DNA of 64,000 nt, from the NCBI RefSeq assembly GCF_011043775.1, contig NZ_JAAKXY010000003.1:620001-684000 (forward strand), read 5' to 3'. Source of the stretch: Natronolimnobius sp. AArcel1 (GTDB lineage Archaea; Halobacteriota; Halobacteria; Halobacteriales; Natrialbaceae). The notes under the pieces were generated by a model, which was given only the letters and a program-made list of their open reading frames with translations, did no database searches and was not told the origin of the DNA. Shown here in pieces: positions 32,274 to 39,014 of the stretch. The translations under genes and the position numbers were made by a program. How positions within the stretch are numbered: the stretch's first letter is position 1; every line of letters starts with the position of its first letter.

Positions 32274-33917
32274 TCAGTCGCGACGGACGACGAGCAAGAC
32301 ACCGAAGATGGCAGCAAGCGCAGCAACGGAACCGAAGCCTGAAACGGGCAGTGACTCAGAGTCGTCCGATTCGGTATCGTGTGAGCTGTCTGTCTCGCGG
32401 TCGTCCTGTGACTCGTTCGACTCAGGCTGGCCGTCGTCATCGTCGTGGTGCTCGTCCGTGTCCGGCTCTGCGAGGACCGTCGTGGTCACAATCGCACTCT
32501 CGTTCGGTGTCCCGACGTGGTGCGTGTAGTCGCCGTTTGCATCCGGTGCAACCGCGTCGAACTCGAGGGTCGTTTCGCTGTCCGGTTTAAGGTCGACCGA
32601 GCGCTCCTCGACGACAGTGCCGTCGAACTCGTACGTGATCGTGGCGGTTCCGTGTTCCGTGCCGCTGTTTTCGATGGTGGCGGTTACGGCAAGCGAGTCG
32701 CCGGGCGAGGCGTTCGATGGTGCCTCGAGAGAGGTGACCTCGAAGAACGCAGCGTCGTCGTCCAGCACAGTGATTGTCTCGTTTGTCGTCCCCGTCTCGT
32801 CATCGTCGGTCTCGACGGTCAACTCGACCGTCTTCTCGCCGGGGTCATCGAACGTGATGTTTGCGTGTTCGCCGCTCACGTTTTTGTCGCCGACAGACCA
32901 CTCATAGGCGACGATCTCGCTATCCGGTGCGCTCGAGTTGCTGGCGTTCAGCGTGACCGTCTCACCGATGACTGGATTCGCCGGGTCGACGGAGATGTTC
33001 GCTTCGGGGCCGTCCGTGTCGTCTCCGCCACCCACACCGGGCGCACCCAGATCCGGACTACTCTCTCGGTCTCCACCAGTGAGTTCGAGGTCAATCGTCC
33101 CGTCGTCGGGCGTCTCGACTTCGATATACTCCTCGAGGGTGTCACACTCGTCGACGCTGCCGCTGTCGGTCACCGTCGCATCGACCGGGTCGACCGAGCC
33201 GTCCGCCATATAGAAGACGAACGGGCCGTCGTACTGGTGTGCCGTCGTATCGAACGTGACGTAGCCCTCGCTGCCCTCGTAGGTGACTGCCCAGATGACG
33301 TGATCGTCGCTGACGACTGTCTCGTCGGGTTCGTCGCCCGCATCGAGCGATGTCCGATCATCGTAATCGCCGTGCGTGCAGGCGTGGGCGTGGTTGACCG
33401 TCTGTTCGGCGAGTAACTCGAGGGTGTATTCTGTCGGCTCTGGCTCGGGTTCGTCACCGGGGTCGGACCCTGGGCCTGAGCCTGGATCAGAGCCGGAGCC
33501 CGAGTCCGAATCATCGCCATCCTCGAACGCTCCGCTCGGGAACGTCAACGACTGTTCGTGCGTTCCGGACTCGAGATCAACGGGGCTCTCGAGGGCGGCT
33601 GGGCCGGAGGCGTTCGCGACGTGGAACGAAACCTCGTCGCCAGCGGCGCTATCGAGACTCAGCTTTTCGTCGAACGCGTCGTCGCCACCGTACTCGCCGG
33701 CTTCATCGACGGTGATCTCGCCACTGACGGTGCCGTCGACGACGGCAACGAGTGTCGTTCCGTTCGGTGCGAGGGTGCCATCGTCGTCAACAGCCTCGCC
33801 GTAGAAGTTCGCCGGCGGGCCTGGCGCGCCCTCCTGTGCGGCTCCGATGGCGACGCTCCCGGCCGTGATAGCCGAGATGATGATGATTGCTGCGATGACT
33901 GTTCGGACGTGATTCAT
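32274..33917 (-). CDS. secreted HACxH-domain protein with PKD, CARDB and PGF-CTERM-like anchor
   Basis: A 547-residue exported protein. Domains in order: Sec signal peptide (about 1-27); a small beta domain (33-130); an acidic linker; domain A (about 165-285) with HACTH at 178-182, HVIW, GYVTFD, AH and a second Cys in DECDT; a PKD-like Ig fold (about 300-385); a CARDB-like fold (388-480); a Ser/Asp/His-rich tether (483-525); and a C-terminal LPVSGFG-hydrophobic-VVRRD segment. The last resembles PGF-CTERM, the archaeosortase/lipid-attachment signal. Domain A is shared with three other copies in the neighbouring genes. The His and Cys pattern suggests metal binding at the cell surface. The gene starts 4 bp after the stop of the 868-residue gene upstream, so the two form an operon. 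Confidence 0.82.
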   Translation of the reverse strand: MNHVRTVIAAIIIISAITAGSVAIGAAQEGAPGPPANFYGEAVDDDGTLAPNGTTLVAVVDGTVSGEITVDEAGEYGGDDAFDEKLSLDSAAGDEVSFHVANASGPAALESPVDLESGTHEQSLTFPSGAFEDGDDSDSGSGSDPGSGPGSDPGDEPEPEPTEYTLELLAEQTVNHAHACTHGDYDDRTSLDAGDEPDETVVSDDHVIWAVTYEGSEGYVTFDTTAHQYDGPFVFYMADGSVDPVDATVTDSGSVDECDTLEEYIEVETPDDGTIDLELTGGDRESSPDLGAPGVGGGDDTDGPEANISVDPANPVIGETVTLNASNSSAPDSEIVAYEWSVGDKNVSGEHANITFDDPGEKTVELTVETDDDETGTTNETITVLDDDAAFFEVTSLEAPSNASPGDSLAVTATIENSGTEHGTATITYEFDGTVVEERSVDLKPDSETTLEFDAVAPDANGDYTHHVGTPNESAIVTTTVLAEPDTDEHHDDDDGQPESNESQDDRETDSSHDTESDDSESLPVSGFGSVAALAAIFGVLLVVRRD

Positions 33918-33921
33918 GCGG

Positions 33922-36528
33922 TTAGTCGGCTCCGTTCAGGGCAGCGGCGCGGTCGGTCGGCTCGTAGTTCGGTCCAATCGTTCCGCGGTCGGCACGATCC
34001 GGATTGTCGACGTACAGCCAGTAGGCGTCGTAGCCGCTGATCAATGATCCCGCACCGAGTTGCGTTCGCTGCTGTGCGTCGAAGACCGTGATCCCATCGC
34101 GTTCGGGATCGATATTCACCAGATCGTCCCCGAGCGTTCGAGTTCCCTCATCTTCGCCGAGTGCGAAGTTCGCACTCGCGAGGTGCCAGCCATCCTCGAG
34201 GTGGACATCGCCGGGTGCTGGTGCGTCGTCAGTCTGGAAGTCGTAACCGAGTCGCGCGTCGGCGTCGGCATCAACGTACAGTCCACGGTGGAGATCGCCA
34301 GCTGCGTCGATCACCTCGCCGTCGTCGTAGCTCGCGCCGAGGCTGACGTAGCTCTCGGCCTCGGTGTCCCAGCGCTCAAGTGCGCTGACGTTCTCCGTGT
34401 GGAGGGCGGCGGGCTGTGGAATCCCCTGCAGCGAGAATCCATCCTCGAGCGAGCGGACTTCGTGGACGAGGTCGATTGTTGCCTCGTGGTCCGTGTCAAC
34501 GCCGTCGATAGCGATGGTCGCTGGACCGGGTTCGACGGCGGGGTCGATTGCGGTCGTGTCGACCGTTGCTCCGTCGATGGAGCCGTCTTCGACCGTGACG
34601 CCGGTCGTTTCTGCGAGCACGGTGTCCTCGCGGACCACCTGCACCGTTACGTCTCCCTCGAGTGCGGTGCCGTCGCCGTCGGTCAGCCCGTCTGCGCTGA
34701 CTGGGAGTGGGTCGTCGTCGACAATCCCGGCGAACTCGTGTGCCACAGTCGTTTGCTCGCCTGCGATGTCGTCTGGAACCTCAGTGTCCTCGCGCAGTTC
34801 GAAGTCGATCAGGCCATCCTCGGGCGTTTCGACCTGAACGTACGAATCGAGGGTTGCACACTCATCGACCTCACCGCGCTCGACAACCTCGGCGTCGACG
34901 GGATCAGCCGTCCCGTCGGCTGTGTAGAAGACGAACGGGCCGTCCCACCAGTGCGGTTCGGTGTCGAACGTGACGTACCCTGACTCGCCCTCGGCAGTCA
35001 CATTCCAGATGACGTGGTCGTCCTCGAGGACGGGGCCGCTCCCGGGTTCGTCACCGCCATCCAGTGCCGTTCGGGAGTCGTAGTCACCGTGGAAACAGGC
35101 GTGACTGTTGTCGATTTCCGTTTCAACGAGGAATTTGATGCCAGGCGGCCGCTCCGACTCGACTGCGACGGATGCCGTCTCGTCGATAACCGTCTCGTCC
35201 TCGCGGAGTTCGAAGACGACTTCTGTTTCGCCGTCGCCCGCAGCGAGTACGTAGACGTGATCGCCGCGTTCATCGAATCCAAGCAGCTCCTCAGCACCCG
35301 CTGCATGGGACACACCGAGTTCGTGGTCGTCGCCGAGTTCGATCTCCTCGCCGGAGTCGTCTTCTGCAGTCGCCTCGAGCACGAGCGGCTCACCGCCGTA
35401 GAGGTCGGGAATCTCGCCGTCCCACTCGCCGTCTTGCCACGTGGCAACGACAGCGTCCGTGTCGCGGTCGACTACCTCGAGCGTTCCGAGTTCGTCGCTC
35501 TGTTCGTCGTCTCCGTCGGTTTCATCGTCTCCATCACTCTCGTCATCGTCAGCCGCGTCAACTGCGACCTCGAGCGATGGCGTCTCGTAGACTGCTTCCT
35601 CGCCATCACTCACCAGGAAAACGACCTCCGTCTCGCCCGCTTCATCGCCGGAGAGCGTGACGTGGTCGCCGTGGCTCTCGAGGCTCAGGACGGACTCGGT
35701 TGCGCCCGCAGCGAACGCGGCCTCGAGATGGTAGTCGTCGCCGAGGTCGAGTTCGTCACCGTCATCTGTGACAGCTGCCTCGAGCGAGATTGAGTCGCCC
35801 GCTTGCAGGTCGGGCACCTCGCCGTGCCAGTGGTCATCGTGAACGTCCGCGAGCGCGTCGTTCGTCTCGCGGTCGAGGAGTTCGAACGCGTCGATATCCA
35901 GATTGTGCGTCTCGTCGTCGCTGTCGCCAGACTTGTTTTCGCTCTCGTCGGTTTCGTTCGTGTCGTCTGTGTCATCCGTTTCGTCACCGCCATCGGACTC
36001 TTCGTCCGAACCGTCCTCATCGGCTTCGTCCGCGGTGAGTTCAAACTCGAGCGTGCCGTCCTCGGGCGTCTCGACCTCGAGATAGTTGTCGAGTGAGTCA
36101 CACTCCTCGACCTCGCCACTCTCGAGAACTGTGGCATCAACGGGTTCCGCGGAACCGTCGGCCACGTAGAAGGTGAACGGGCCGTCGTAGGCGTGTGCAT
36201 CAGTGTCAACGGAGACGTATCCCTCGTCACCCACGTACGTGACGTTCCAGATGTCGTGGGTCTCCTCGAGTGTCGGTCCCTCGCCGACCGCGTCGCCAGC
36301 CTCGAGTGGCGTTCGCGGATCTTCGTCACCGTGGCCACATGCGTGTGCGTGATCAACGGATTCCTCGGCCAGGAAGATGACGCCCTCGGCGTCCTCGGCG
36401 GGCACGGTGTCATCTGAAGCGCCGACTGTTCCGCTCGCAAGGAGGCCGCCGGCCGCGACGGCAACCATCAGCACTGCAACGATTGTCAGCGCATCTTGTC
36501 GTTTCGTCTGCTGTCTTCTTGCAATCAT
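33922..36528 (-). CDS. large secreted protein with A-B-B-A arrangement of His-rich domains
   Basis: An 868-residue exported protein. Domains: signal peptide (about 1-37); domain A1 (50-167; HACGH at 62-66); acidic linker; domain B1 (210-325; HWHGEVPDL and SHGDHV); acidic linker; domain B2 (348-457), in which the first His motif is lost (EWDGEIPDL); domain A2 (463-581; HACFH at 476-480); then an Ig-like region and a C-terminal beta domain (about 590-868) without obvious anchor. Domain B also occurs inside the ZnuA-like lipoprotein transcribed divergently. Predicted role: extracellular metal (probably zinc) capture or delivery. Its promoter shares TTATTAAAACC-N9-GATAATA with the ZnuA-like gene. 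No known database name can be given without a search. Confidence 0.82.
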   Translation of the reverse strand: MIARRQQTKRQDALTIVAVLMVAVAAGGLLASGTVGASDDTVPAEDAEGVIFLAEESVDHAHACGHGDEDPRTPLEAGDAVGEGPTLEETHDIWNVTYVGDEGYVSVDTDAHAYDGPFTFYVADGSAEPVDATVLESGEVEECDSLDNYLEVETPEDGTLEFELTADEADEDGSDEESDGGDETDDTDDTNETDESENKSGDSDDETHNLDIDAFELLDRETNDALADVHDDHWHGEVPDLQAGDSISLEAAVTDDGDELDLGDDYHLEAAFAAGATESVLSLESHGDHVTLSGDEAGETEVVFLVSDGEEAVYETPSLEVAVDAADDDESDGDDETDGDDEQSDELGTLEVVDRDTDAVVATWQDGEWDGEIPDLYGGEPLVLEATAEDDSGEEIELGDDHELGVSHAAGAEELLGFDERGDHVYVLAAGDGETEVVFELREDETVIDETASVAVESERPPGIKFLVETEIDNSHACFHGDYDSRTALDGGDEPGSGPVLEDDHVIWNVTAEGESGYVTFDTEPHWWDGPFVFYTADGTADPVDAEVVERGEVDECATLDSYVQVETPEDGLIDFELREDTEVPDDIAGEQTTVAHEFAGIVDDDPLPVSADGLTDGDGTALEGDVTVQVVREDTVLAETTGVTVEDGSIDGATVDTTAIDPAVEPGPATIAIDGVDTDHEATIDLVHEVRSLEDGFSLQGIPQPAALHTENVSALERWDTEAESYVSLGASYDDGEVIDAAGDLHRGLYVDADADARLGYDFQTDDAPAPGDVHLEDGWHLASANFALGEDEGTRTLGDDLVNIDPERDGITVFDAQQRTQLGAGSLISGYDAYWLYVDNPDRADRGTIGPNYEPTDRAAALNGAD

Positions 36529-36565
36529 TTATGCTACCAACCCATCTCTGTTGGATGTTTAAAAA

Positions 36566-36592
36566 TATTATCTAGTTGGCTGGTTTTAATAA
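36566..36592 (-). promoter_or_regulatory. promoter and shared operator-like motif of the 868-residue gene
   Basis: On the minus strand TTATTAAAACC (36582-36592), 9 nt, then GATAATA (36566-36572). The latter is a TATA box 38-44 nt before the ATG. Sequence and spacing match the promoter of the ZnuA-like gene exactly except for one base. Confidence 0.6.
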
Positions 36593-36856
36593 CTAGCAAT
36601 GGTTTGACTAATGTCTAATGTCGAAGAACATGCTCGAGACCGCACGGAGAGGCTATGACGGACCGTATTTCCAACTCAGCTGAAACATGTTCCAAACAGC
36701 GCCCGCGTGGATAGCGATGGCAATCGATCCCACACGTTGCTGTTCGCGATGGTCGCTCGACTCGAGTCCGCTGGCACGGCGGTTGATCCAGTAAGACGCC
36801 CCACAGCGACGGACCGCGTATCGATTTAGCAATGAGACCAATCTCAATAACAGAAT

Positions 36857-36883
36857 TTAGTAAAACCTTGGGACAAGATAATA
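36857..36883 (+). promoter_or_regulatory. promoter and shared operator-like motif of the ZnuA-like gene
   Basis: TTAGTAAAACC (36857-36867), 9 nt, then GATAATA (36877-36883), 33-39 nt before the ATG. The same element with identical spacing serves the divergent gene, and a weaker version precedes the HACxH lipoprotein gene. Confidence 0.6.
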
Positions 36884-36915
36884 AGATACTTGTTTGCTAC
36901 CCCACACGTGTGTGT

Positions 36916-38337
36916 ATGGATCTCTCACGACGTGCGACGCTGACCAGTAGCGCAACGCTCGCACTCGGCGCACTCGCCGGTTGCATGAACGAACCGAGCG
37001 GAAACGGAACCGACAGTGACGGGACTGAAAGCGAAAGCGAGGCCGAACACAGCGGCTACGCGGCCTTTTTCACACTCTGGGATTGGGCCGAACACGTCGC
37101 CGGCGACCACATGACGTTCACGAATCCCGTCGCCACTGGCGAGATGGGCCACGGCTGGGAACCACCAGCGGACATCCAGCGCGACATCGCCGACTCGGAC
37201 ACGTTCATCTATCTGGATACGGCCGAGTTTTCGTGGGCCCAAGACGTTGCCGCCGGCCTCGAGGATGACTACGATGATATCGCCGTCATCGACGTGATGG
37301 ACGGCCTCGAGTCGTCGCTGTTGCCAATTGATCGAGACGCAGACACCGACCGGACTCCTGATACTGACCACGAGTACGATCCCGACTCGCTCACCGTCGA
37401 CGGGTTCGAGGTCTATGACCGCCAGTCCGGCGAGGAAATCGCCTACTGGCACATCGACCACTGGCACGGCAGTGTCCCTGACGCGCCGGTTGACGGCCAC
37501 GCCGCCGTCGAGGGTGTCTTCGAAGACGACGAGGGACGCATCCTGCCACTCGGCGACGACCAGCCGTTCCAGTTCGACGCGCGCGTCCTCGATGGCGCAG
37601 ACGACGATGTCGTAGAAATCGTCTCGCACGGCGATTACGTCGAGTTCCACGGCCTCGAGGCCGGTCGGACGCGGATTGCCTTTGAACTCGTCGCTGGCAG
37701 CGAGGTGATCTGGGATACGAGCGAGGATAGCATGACCGCGGATGTCGTCGAGGAACTCGACGAGAGCGACGTGCCGGAGTTTTACGACCCGCACGTCTGG
37801 GTCGACCCCGTTCTCGCACAGGATGTCGTCGAGGCCATCGCGGATGGACTCGCCGATATCGACCCCGACAACGCCGACGCCTACGCGGACAACGCCGCGG
37901 CCTACATCGAACGCCTCGAGGACGTTGACCGGCAGTTCGAAGAACTTGCAGCCGAGGCCGAGCGCGACGTGGCCGTCCTCGCCGGACACGACGCGTTCCA
38001 GTACATCGAGCACCGCTACGATTTCGAGATTCACACGCCTGTCGGAATCTCCCCCGATGCAGCTGAATCCCAATCGGACATCGCCGAGGCCATCGACGTC
38101 GTCGAGGAACACGATATCGAGACGGTCCTCTACGATCCGTTCGAGACGCCAAATCCTGATGAGGACATCCCGCAGATGGTCGAGGTGCTCCTCGAGAACA
38201 CCGATGCAGACACCTACGAGCCGCTGACACCAGTCGAAGGGACGACCGAAGAGTGGAACGAACAGGACTGGGGCTGGATCGAACAGATGGAAGAACTCAA
38301 TCTTCCGTCGCTGCGGGCGGCACTGGGCGCAGACTGA
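36916..38337 (+). CDS. ZnuA-like metal-binding lipoprotein with inserted His-rich domain B
   Basis: A 473-residue ABC-transporter substrate-binding protein of the ZnuA/TroA (cluster 9) family. The N-terminus SRRATL plus hydrophobic stretch and LAGC (Cys23) indicates a Tat-exported lipoprotein. Metal ligands of ZnuA are readable: H79 in MGHGWEP, H293 in DPHVWVDP, H358 in AGHDAFQY, and an acidic residue near DPFETP (about 408-411). Between ligands 1 and 2, where ZnuA carries a disordered His-rich loop, it has a folded-looking insert (about 159-277). The insert contains HWHGSVPD and SHGDYV and is homologous to domain B of the divergent secreted protein. The start at 36916 gives the export signal; 28 upstream codons do not. 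No permease or ATPase gene is adjacent. Confidence 0.87.
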   Translation: MDLSRRATLTSSATLALGALAGCMNEPSGNGTDSDGTESESEAEHSGYAAFFTLWDWAEHVAGDHMTFTNPVATGEMGHGWEPPADIQRDIADSDTFIYLDTAEFSWAQDVAAGLEDDYDDIAVIDVMDGLESSLLPIDRDADTDRTPDTDHEYDPDSLTVDGFEVYDRQSGEEIAYWHIDHWHGSVPDAPVDGHAAVEGVFEDDEGRILPLGDDQPFQFDARVLDGADDDVVEIVSHGDYVEFHGLEAGRTRIAFELVAGSEVIWDTSEDSMTADVVEELDESDVPEFYDPHVWVDPVLAQDVVEAIADGLADIDPDNADAYADNAAAYIERLEDVDRQFEELAAEAERDVAVLAGHDAFQYIEHRYDFEIHTPVGISPDAAESQSDIAEAIDVVEEHDIETVLYDPFETPNPDEDIPQMVEVLLENTDADTYEPLTPVEGTTEEWNEQDWGWIEQMEELNLPSLRAALGAD

Positions 38338-38387
38338 GCGCACAGGCAGTTGACAGAATGTTGAACTACCGCAGTTCCGCGCCGTCG

Positions 38388-39014
38388 TTATTCTGCCTGT
38401 AACTCGAGCGTGATCACGCCTTCTTCGGGTTCGACTTCCACGTACTCATCGAGCGGGCCACACTCATCGTCGTCAACGTCGCCCTCCTCGAGTAGCGTCC
38501 CCGAAACGGGTGTTGCGGTTCCGTCGGCTGTATAGAAGACGAACGAGCCGTCCGCGTGATGAGCGTCAGCGTCGAAAGTGACGTAGCCCGCTTCGCCCTC
38601 GTAAGTTACCTCCCAGATGACGTGCGTTTCGTCGACGGTAGCTGCCGCCTCAGTTTCCGAGCCAGCCTCGAGCGGTGTTCGGTCATCGAACTCGGCGTGG
38701 AGACACGCGTGCTCATGGTCGATGTGTTCCTCACCGAGCAACTCGAGGGTGTGTTCGGTCGGTTCGTCGTCCGTCTCGTCGTCTGTCTCGCCGTTCGCCT
38801 CAGCATCCGACTCGCCGTCGGAATCGTCGTCAGAAGCGTTAGGCGTCTCGTTTGCACTCGAGTTGGTATCATCAGACTCGGGGTCGGATTCCGCCTCGGT
38901 ATCCGAGCCGTCAGCCGACTCATCATCGGACGTAAGCGCAGTACACCCGGCCAGCGCGGTCACGAGTGCGGTTCCGACGCCAGTCTCGAGTAGCGTTCGA
39001 CGTGTATACGTCAT
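38388..39014 (-). CDS. Tat lipoprotein with a single HACxH domain
   Basis: A 208-residue protein. MTYTRRTLLE with a hydrophobic stretch and LAGC (Cys24) is a Tat lipoprotein signal. Residues 27-87 are a Ser/Asp/Glu-rich tether. Domain A fills 88-208: HACLH at 102-106, THVIW, GYVTFD, AHH, and a late Cys in DDECG. It is the simplest member of the group and convergent with the ZnuA-like gene. The promoter has TATTAAAACA followed by A/T-rich TATA-like sequence at the same distance as in the other two. Predicted surface metal-binding protein; not named in databases as far as I know. Confidence 0.82.
   Translation of the reverse strand: MTYTRRTLLETGVGTALVTALAGCTALTSDDESADGSDTEAESDPESDDTNSSANETPNASDDDSDGESDAEANGETDDETDDEPTEHTLELLGEEHIDHEHACLHAEFDDRTPLEAGSETEAAATVDETHVIWEVTYEGEAGYVTFDADAHHADGSFVFYTADGTATPVSGTLLEEGDVDDDECGPLDEYVEVEPEEGVITLELQAE

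Follow-up and report, generated by a model that had tools for sequence, protein, structure and literature searches.

In AdcA-ZinT, an accessory extracytoplasmic zinc domain supplies a zinc-binding protein. Similarly, AztD is reported to hand zinc to AztC (PMC6689063). In the actinobacterium Corynebacterium diphtheriae, the genes of the anchored-repeat ABC system are regulated by zinc and Zur, and the gene encoding a GTP-binding protein, zrg, belongs to the same regulon (PMC6711530). Among haloarchaea, the znuA1C1B1 operon of Haloferax is the sole zinc operon with experimental work that we found in the literature searched (PMC8155600); the same search returned no description of a domain insertion in a haloarchaeal ZnuA and, apart from this znu operon with a small RNA in Haloferax, no haloarchaeal zinc-uptake regulon.

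Here we describe a cluster of four neighbouring open reading frames (positions 32274–39014) within a 64,000-nucleotide stretch of the genome of Natronolimnobius sp. AArcel1 (hereafter the window; the genome is referred to as the source genome). Together, these reading frames carry four copies of one domain, domain A, and three copies of another, domain B (Table 1). We think it probable that the four genes specify the surface part of an uptake system for a transition metal, of which zinc is the likeliest, that the A and B domains collect the metal and hand it off, and that a 28-nt inverted repeat switches the genes.

Table 1 Features of the four-gene cluster, in positions of the window
Feature	Position	Strand	Remarks
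547-aa exported surface protein	32274..33917	-	N-terminal region, one domain A, PKD, CARDB, C-terminal TM with PGF-CTERM-like tail
Domain A of 547-aa protein	33072..33434	-	residues 162-282
868-aa exported protein	33922..36528	-	architecture A-B-B-A, then C-terminal region
Domain A copy 2, 868-aa protein	34786..35151	-	genome profile search
Domain B copy 2, 868-aa protein	35149..35499	-	degenerate, HxxHWH lost
Domain B copy 1, 868-aa protein	35554..35904	-	genome profile search
Domain A copy 1, 868-aa protein	36028..36393	-	genome profile search
Operator-like inverted repeat TTATTA-N16-TAATAT	36565..36592	-	5' of 868-aa gene
Operator-like inverted repeat TTAGTA-N16-TAATAA	36857..36884	+	59 nt 5' of probable ZnuA start, one-change form
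ZnuA-family (PF01297) Tat lipoprotein with inserted B	36916..38337	+	longest ORF from 36832
Domain B inside ZnuA-like protein	37387..37746	+	between N-lobe motif GHGWEP and second motif DPHVW
208-aa Tat lipoprotein, one domain A	38388..39014	-	ORF and domain search
Domain A of 208-aa lipoprotein	38391..38759	-	sequence used for AF2 model
Operator-like element ATATTA-N16-TAACAA	39044..39071	-	5' of A-lipoprotein gene

The coordinates and motifs that a first-pass annotation had assigned to this cluster all hold, as does its count of four A copies in three proteins, the copies being 57–60% identical to the first. Its count of three B copies (28–38% identical) also stands, but the second copy in the 868-aa protein has degenerate motifs (WDGEIPD, ERGDHV). 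The start given for the ZnuA-like gene, 36832, is probably to be replaced by 36916, from which a Tat lipoprotein is encoded (MDLSRR..LAGC); the operator-like repeat falls between these two positions. Because only 4 nt separate the end of the 868-aa gene from the start of the 547-aa gene, these two genes probably form one operon. Their products had been described as anchored, which fits the 547-aa protein in that it has a C-terminal anchor-like segment, with PGF-CTERM scores below the cut-offs (11.9 versus 18.8 bits for PF18204 and 13 versus 24.5 bits for TIGR04126), but does not fit the 868-aa protein, in which we found no C-terminal anchor-like segment. The four-gene cluster contains neither znuB nor znuC; both are found at other loci of the source genome.

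The ZnuA-like protein matches PF01297 over residues 77–461 (E 2e-44; 152.5 bits versus a gathering threshold of 29), has relatives in the PDB that include AdcA and YcdH, and contains all three of the ligand motifs GHGWEP, DPHVW and GHDAF. Judged by these matches it is a true member of PF01297 and a predicted metal binder. Approximately 120 extra residues, at 186–305, constitute domain B and lie, as had been proposed, between metal-ligand loops 1 and 2, from GHGWEP to DPHVW. ZnuA proteins have a His-rich loop at the position where B is inserted. The suggestion that B takes the place of this loop is borne out as regards position, but there has been no simple replacement, since relatives carry B and a His-rich loop together. 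The core of the window protein (hereafter ZnuA[B], for ZnuA with B inserted) is 91% identical to that of its orthologue (L092) in the sole congeneric genome sampled, and no domain A was found in that genome.

Domains A and B matched no Pfam or NCBIfam family, and by these profile searches they are two undescribed domain families. In the source genome, a search for domain A recovered the four window copies with E values from 1e-59 to 1e-66 and no further copy, nothing else falling below E 0.2, and a search for domain B recovered the window copies at E<1e-49 together with four more copies outside the window, at two loci on contig C6. Homology between A and B was considered and rejected (profile comparison probability 0.2%). 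The AF2 model of domain B (pLDDT 97.3) is Ig-like, with S-layer and filamin-type Ig domains as its nearest structures; assignment to one specific Ig family was set aside, as the matches were generic only (best E 6e-4, TM 0.51). The AF2 model of domain A (pLDDT 95.9) is beta-rich, with a single helix at residues 15–24 that bears H17-A-C-x-H21, so that H17 and H21 sit on the same helix. When compared with the PDB, this model retrieved nothing below E 0.3, and the best match (E 0.33, TM 0.40) was dismissed as a known fold for A.

In domain B, an HxxHWH hairpin is near-invariant (H22 in 52/53, H25 in 51/53 and W26 in 53/53; H27 is near-invariant as well), and the histidines of this hairpin are gone as a set from copy 2 of the 868-aa protein. 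In domain A, H17, H21 and H46 are lost jointly at two loci, L053 (Y, R, G) and L061 (A, A, G), where the Cys pair is retained, and C19 and C100 are lost jointly in two other copies that retain the histidines; further apparent exceptions in the table of A residues are mostly domains that a His run or a B insertion interrupts. The separate co-loss of the His triad and of the Cys pair thus distinguishes a three-His site from a disulfide. H17, H21 and H46 are the likely ligands of domain A. Of the clustered His and Cys for which the first-pass annotation had proposed to inspect predicted structures, the model and the co-loss give A a plausible set of His ligands; the conserved Cys were considered as metal ligands too, but were rejected on the same co-loss pattern, which fits a disulfide better. 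The A-containing lipoproteins L050:8904-9728, L058:9657-10562 and L060:9670-10698 have very long Asp-His runs, each contributing to totals of tens of His, both ahead of the domain and within it. Such runs in A lipoproteins occur at two places, ahead of HACGH or between the motifs GYVxFE and FAFF; at the second of these places, the A domain of L062 contains an inserted B. Two further lipoproteins (L052:9178-10227 and L053:9817-10899) fuse A to a rhodanese-like domain, the A of L053 being the one without the His triad.

These features also bear on whether A and B need bind metal at all. They could be homotypic protein–protein contact modules that bring the surface proteins and the binding protein together in a complex, with metal bound by the His runs and ZnuA only, an explanation that we consider unlikely. 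It would accord with the Ig-like fold of B, Ig being a common interaction fold, with the long His runs that many of the lipoproteins carry, and with the retention of B copy 2 in the window although its histidines are lost; the near-invariant HxxHWH of B and the joint loss of the His triad of A, however, suggest a ligand role.

The genomic context in relatives bears on the metal-uptake reading. A co-occurrence of the A and B domains with znuB and znuC had been put forward as a check, and the domains were found mainly beside metal transporters: the B loci that we fetched encode ZnuA with an inserted B in 30/42 cases, ZnuB in 26/42 and ZnuC in 20/42. The typical order is a B or BB lipoprotein gene followed by those for ZnuA[B], ZnuC and ZnuB. 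Several genera have A in place of B in the lipoprotein encoded 5' of ZnuA[B], and an A-lipoprotein gene adjoins ZnuA[B]-ZnuC-ZnuB in L050, L054, L055, L058–L060, L062, L077, L078 and L080. In Halorutilus (L088), the genes for ZnuA[B], ZnuC and ZnuB have genes for multidomain A/B proteins on either side, all in one co-directional row, and a single co-directional row in genome G032 (L047) encodes an A-lipoprotein, an A-B-B-A protein, an A-PKD-CARDB protein, ZnuA[B] and ZnuB. The A-B-B-A architecture thus recurs in L047, and also in L049, with A-B-B-B-A in L083. Moreover, the ZnuA of Natribaculum, Natrinema and Haloterrigena has A where others have the inserted B; the tree indicates at least two gains of an A insertion in ZnuA, with the caveat of a long Natribaculum branch. 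Some A and B genes are solitary, far from any transporter. Diverged solo B-type lipoproteins (HWH..SHWH) are encoded away from ZnuA in L124, L127, L129, L130, L131 and L132, and some of their genes adjoin other lipoprotein genes.

The source genome itself has ZnuA genes at other loci as well. In L006, on contig C6, the genes for ZnuA[B], ZnuC and ZnuB stand in a row behind that for a His-run-bearing B-B Tat lipoprotein; L007 encodes a ZnuA with a weaker B together with ZnuB, adjoining cobalamin genes; and L008 contains a plain ZnuA-ZnuC-ZnuB operon. A different palindrome, TTAGACTAGTCTAA, precedes this plain operon, 5' of position 8019 in L008. We presume that it may be a DtxR/SirR-type site and that the operon may encode a manganese system.

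Many A and ZnuA[B] genes are preceded by an inverted repeat of 28 nt, TTATTA-N16-TAATAA, typically 59 nt from the start. A loose form of this element precedes 27/43 ZnuA[B] genes and 18/36 A genes compared with 0/792 other genes in the same stretches, counts that were taken in the same sequences from which the element was discovered and in which orthologous promoters are not independent. When strict TTATTA/TAATAA pairs at spacings of 8–25 were tallied, 26/31 were found at spacing 16 and 0–2 at each other spacing. In L049, a one-change form precedes a gene for a GTPase resembling the zinc chaperone ZigA, near A genes. The fixed spacer and the occurrence of the element before unrelated genes (A, ZnuA and GTPase) argue against mere relatedness. 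In the whole source genome the operator pattern gives 6 hits and a reversed control gives 7, so that the count alone is not unusual; the five sites of the loose form lie before the 868-aa gene, the A-lipoprotein gene and the ZnuA[B] gene of L006, and two are on contig C8, neither of them linked to a recognisable gene. What is notable about the hits is their position and fixed spacer, not their genome-wide number. The B-lipoprotein genes have a distinct element, TTAAYAR-N10-16-TTASYAA, which is present at 16/30 of them and at 0/792 others.

The closest described counterpart of the 28-nt repeat is the operator of the nickel-uptake regulator NikR, which in Escherichia coli is GTATGA-N16-TCATAC, that is, 6-N16-6 (PMC7055735). 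The two are alike in being 28-nt inverted repeats with 6-nt arms and a 16-nt spacer; they differ in that the arms here are TTATTA/TAATAA, not GTATGA/TCATAC, and in that the targets are ZnuA-type and A/B genes. NikR_C is present in 193/194 Halobacteria genomes, and the source genome contains three NikR-type genes (L170, L171 and L172). The one at L172:30-1869 (contig C2 near 169,000) is a NikR-family gene with a metal-domain insert; a COG0523 GTPase gene, ZigA-like, lies divergent to it, and the two are a candidate zinc regulator pair. Because of the 6-N16-6 geometry and of this divergent arrangement, we hypothesize that a NikR-family protein regulates the A and ZnuA[B] genes.

Zinc is the likeliest metal of the A-containing branch. 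COG0523 GTPase genes are found near A genes in genome G064 and in Natrinema/Haloterrigena, and the top model for their products is the zinc chaperone ZigA, with scores of 425–433 bits that are below the NF038288 cut-off of 600, yet for which this is the best model by far. A protein of FAD/NAD(P)-binding type that lacks an NCBIfam match is encoded recurrently beside the ZigA-like GTPase and A genes (L049:6407-7675 and L057:10869-12116). The assignment to zinc is uncertain because of the NikR-type geometry and because other B branches accompany urease and NikR or CbiM. Genes for ZnuA[B], mostly with ZnuB, lie inside urease clusters in L111, L112, L115, L118, L121 and L123, several of which also have urea-type transporter genes. 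These urease-linked ZnuA[B] proteins form a separate clade (99 SH-aLRT); in L111, L112 and L115 a NikR gene adjoins ZnuA[B], an arrangement seen in no other branch, and in two of these a repeat identical or nearly identical to GTATTA-N16-TAATAC is found at the ZnuA start. The urease-linked ZnuA[B] is a probable ZnuA-type nickel importer. In a non-haloarchaeal class, a secreted B-B protein is encoded between cobalamin genes and genes for CbiM, a NikL-like protein, CbiQ and CbiO (L179:6844-9063 and L181:7597-13657), a setting that points to cobalt or nickel. Another B is fused to an unnamed domain and adjoins formate dehydrogenase-like genes in L180 and L183. Since it occurs in ZnuA, urease/NikR and CbiM contexts, B appears to accompany transition-metal uptake generally.

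The same system might thus serve nickel or cobalt in place of zinc, which strikes us as rather improbable. The operator spacing shared with NikR, the NikR genes and NikR-like repeats beside urease-linked ZnuA[B], and the BB protein beside CbiM/CbiQ/CbiO all speak for these metals. Against them, the urease-linked branch is distinct from the A-containing one and none of its ZnuA[B] genes has the TTATTA-N16-TAATAA element, A genes adjoin genes for ZigA-type GTPases in several genomes, one of these GTPase genes shares the element, and a NikR-like gene of the source genome is divergent from a ZigA-like gene.

With respect to distribution, 14 of 194 Halobacteria genomes (12/65 genera) contain A, 35 (17 genera) contain B and 160 contain ZnuA. 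Across 393 genomes of the phylum, we found A in Halobacteria only, and B elsewhere in only three genomes, all of one family. When public genomes were scanned for A, the 15 loci recovered were all from archaea, mostly Natrialbaceae, with others in Halorutilus and in two MAGs, one of Halovenus and one labelled 'Euryarchaeota'; this search used back-translated patterns that distant bacterial relatives could escape. Bacterial relatives were also sought via plasmids, and nothing credible emerged.

Taken as a system for zinc uptake, the cluster could work as follows. Surface and lipid-anchored A/B proteins would bind scarce metal through the His sites of the domains and through the His runs; from there it would pass between like domains, from the surface proteins to the lipoproteins and on to ZnuA. 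The A or B domain in the ZnuA loop may serve as a receiving arm that replaces or supplements the His loop, and ZnuB and ZnuC, encoded elsewhere in the source genome, would import the metal. The A/B and ZnuA genes would be switched jointly through the 28-nt inverted repeat by a putative regulator. The first-pass annotation had proposed an extracellular metal-gathering relay: the gathering of metal for a ZnuA-type importer is strongly supported by the genomic context, the promoter element and the recurrent insertion of A or B at a single ZnuA site across many genera, but some B branches appear to serve nickel or cobalt. That the A/B system is one for extracellular metal gathering is well supported by these comparisons of sequence. 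Storage or detoxification of metal at the surface, for which His-rich surface proteins able to buffer surplus metal and A proteins that are solitary or joined to a rhodanese-like domain might be adduced, is very improbable given that A and B are inserted in the binding protein of an importer and share a promoter element with importer genes.

More tentatively, we suggest that A and B may be unrelated extracellular metal-handling domains of archaea that are interchangeable in one loop of metal-binding proteins, are strung together at the cell surface and serve zinc, nickel and cobalt, that a haloarchaeal regulator of the NikR family may have been turned to zinc, and that the whole may be convergent with the actinobacterial system. 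The cluster yields a defined promoter element and two new families of domains whose ligands can be tested, and it makes the passing of metal along surface proteins via shared domains testable in haloarchaea.

As in AztD-AztC and AdcA-ZinT, an accessory protein or domain would here feed a zinc-binding protein; we found no sequence relation of A or B to those accessories, and the presumed donor and acceptor here both carry the shared domain. Compared with ordinary ZnuA and other cluster A-I proteins that have a His-rich loop, the ZnuA-like protein is of the same family (PF01297), with the same motifs and the same insertion position, but an entire folded domain, B here and A in some relatives, is inserted in that loop. 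The actinobacterial anchored-repeat ABC systems (TIGR03772/TIGR03769; the troA locus of C. diphtheriae) had already been brought up in the first-pass annotation, with the remark that the domains look different, and this holds for the family profiles: no A or B member matched the anchored-repeat models at E<=1. Homology of A or B to the actinobacterial repeat, compared by family profiles only, was rejected for want of any profile match. The best TIGR03769 match in the source genome falls in the 547-aa protein, at its PKD region (E 0.23), and the window ZnuA-like protein matches TIGR03772 in its C-lobe only (E 2e-19; 69.6 bits versus a cut-off of 350.45). These comparisons point to an independent origin of the archaeal A/B system, which would give the actinobacterial surface system an independent archaeal counterpart. 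In both systems, a cluster A-I binding protein has a domain in common with surface proteins, and ABC genes adjoin the A/B genes in haloarchaeal relatives, though not in the window; here, however, the hosts are archaeal, Tat lipoproteins are found in place of sortase anchors, and a NikR-type repeat is found in place of a Zur box.
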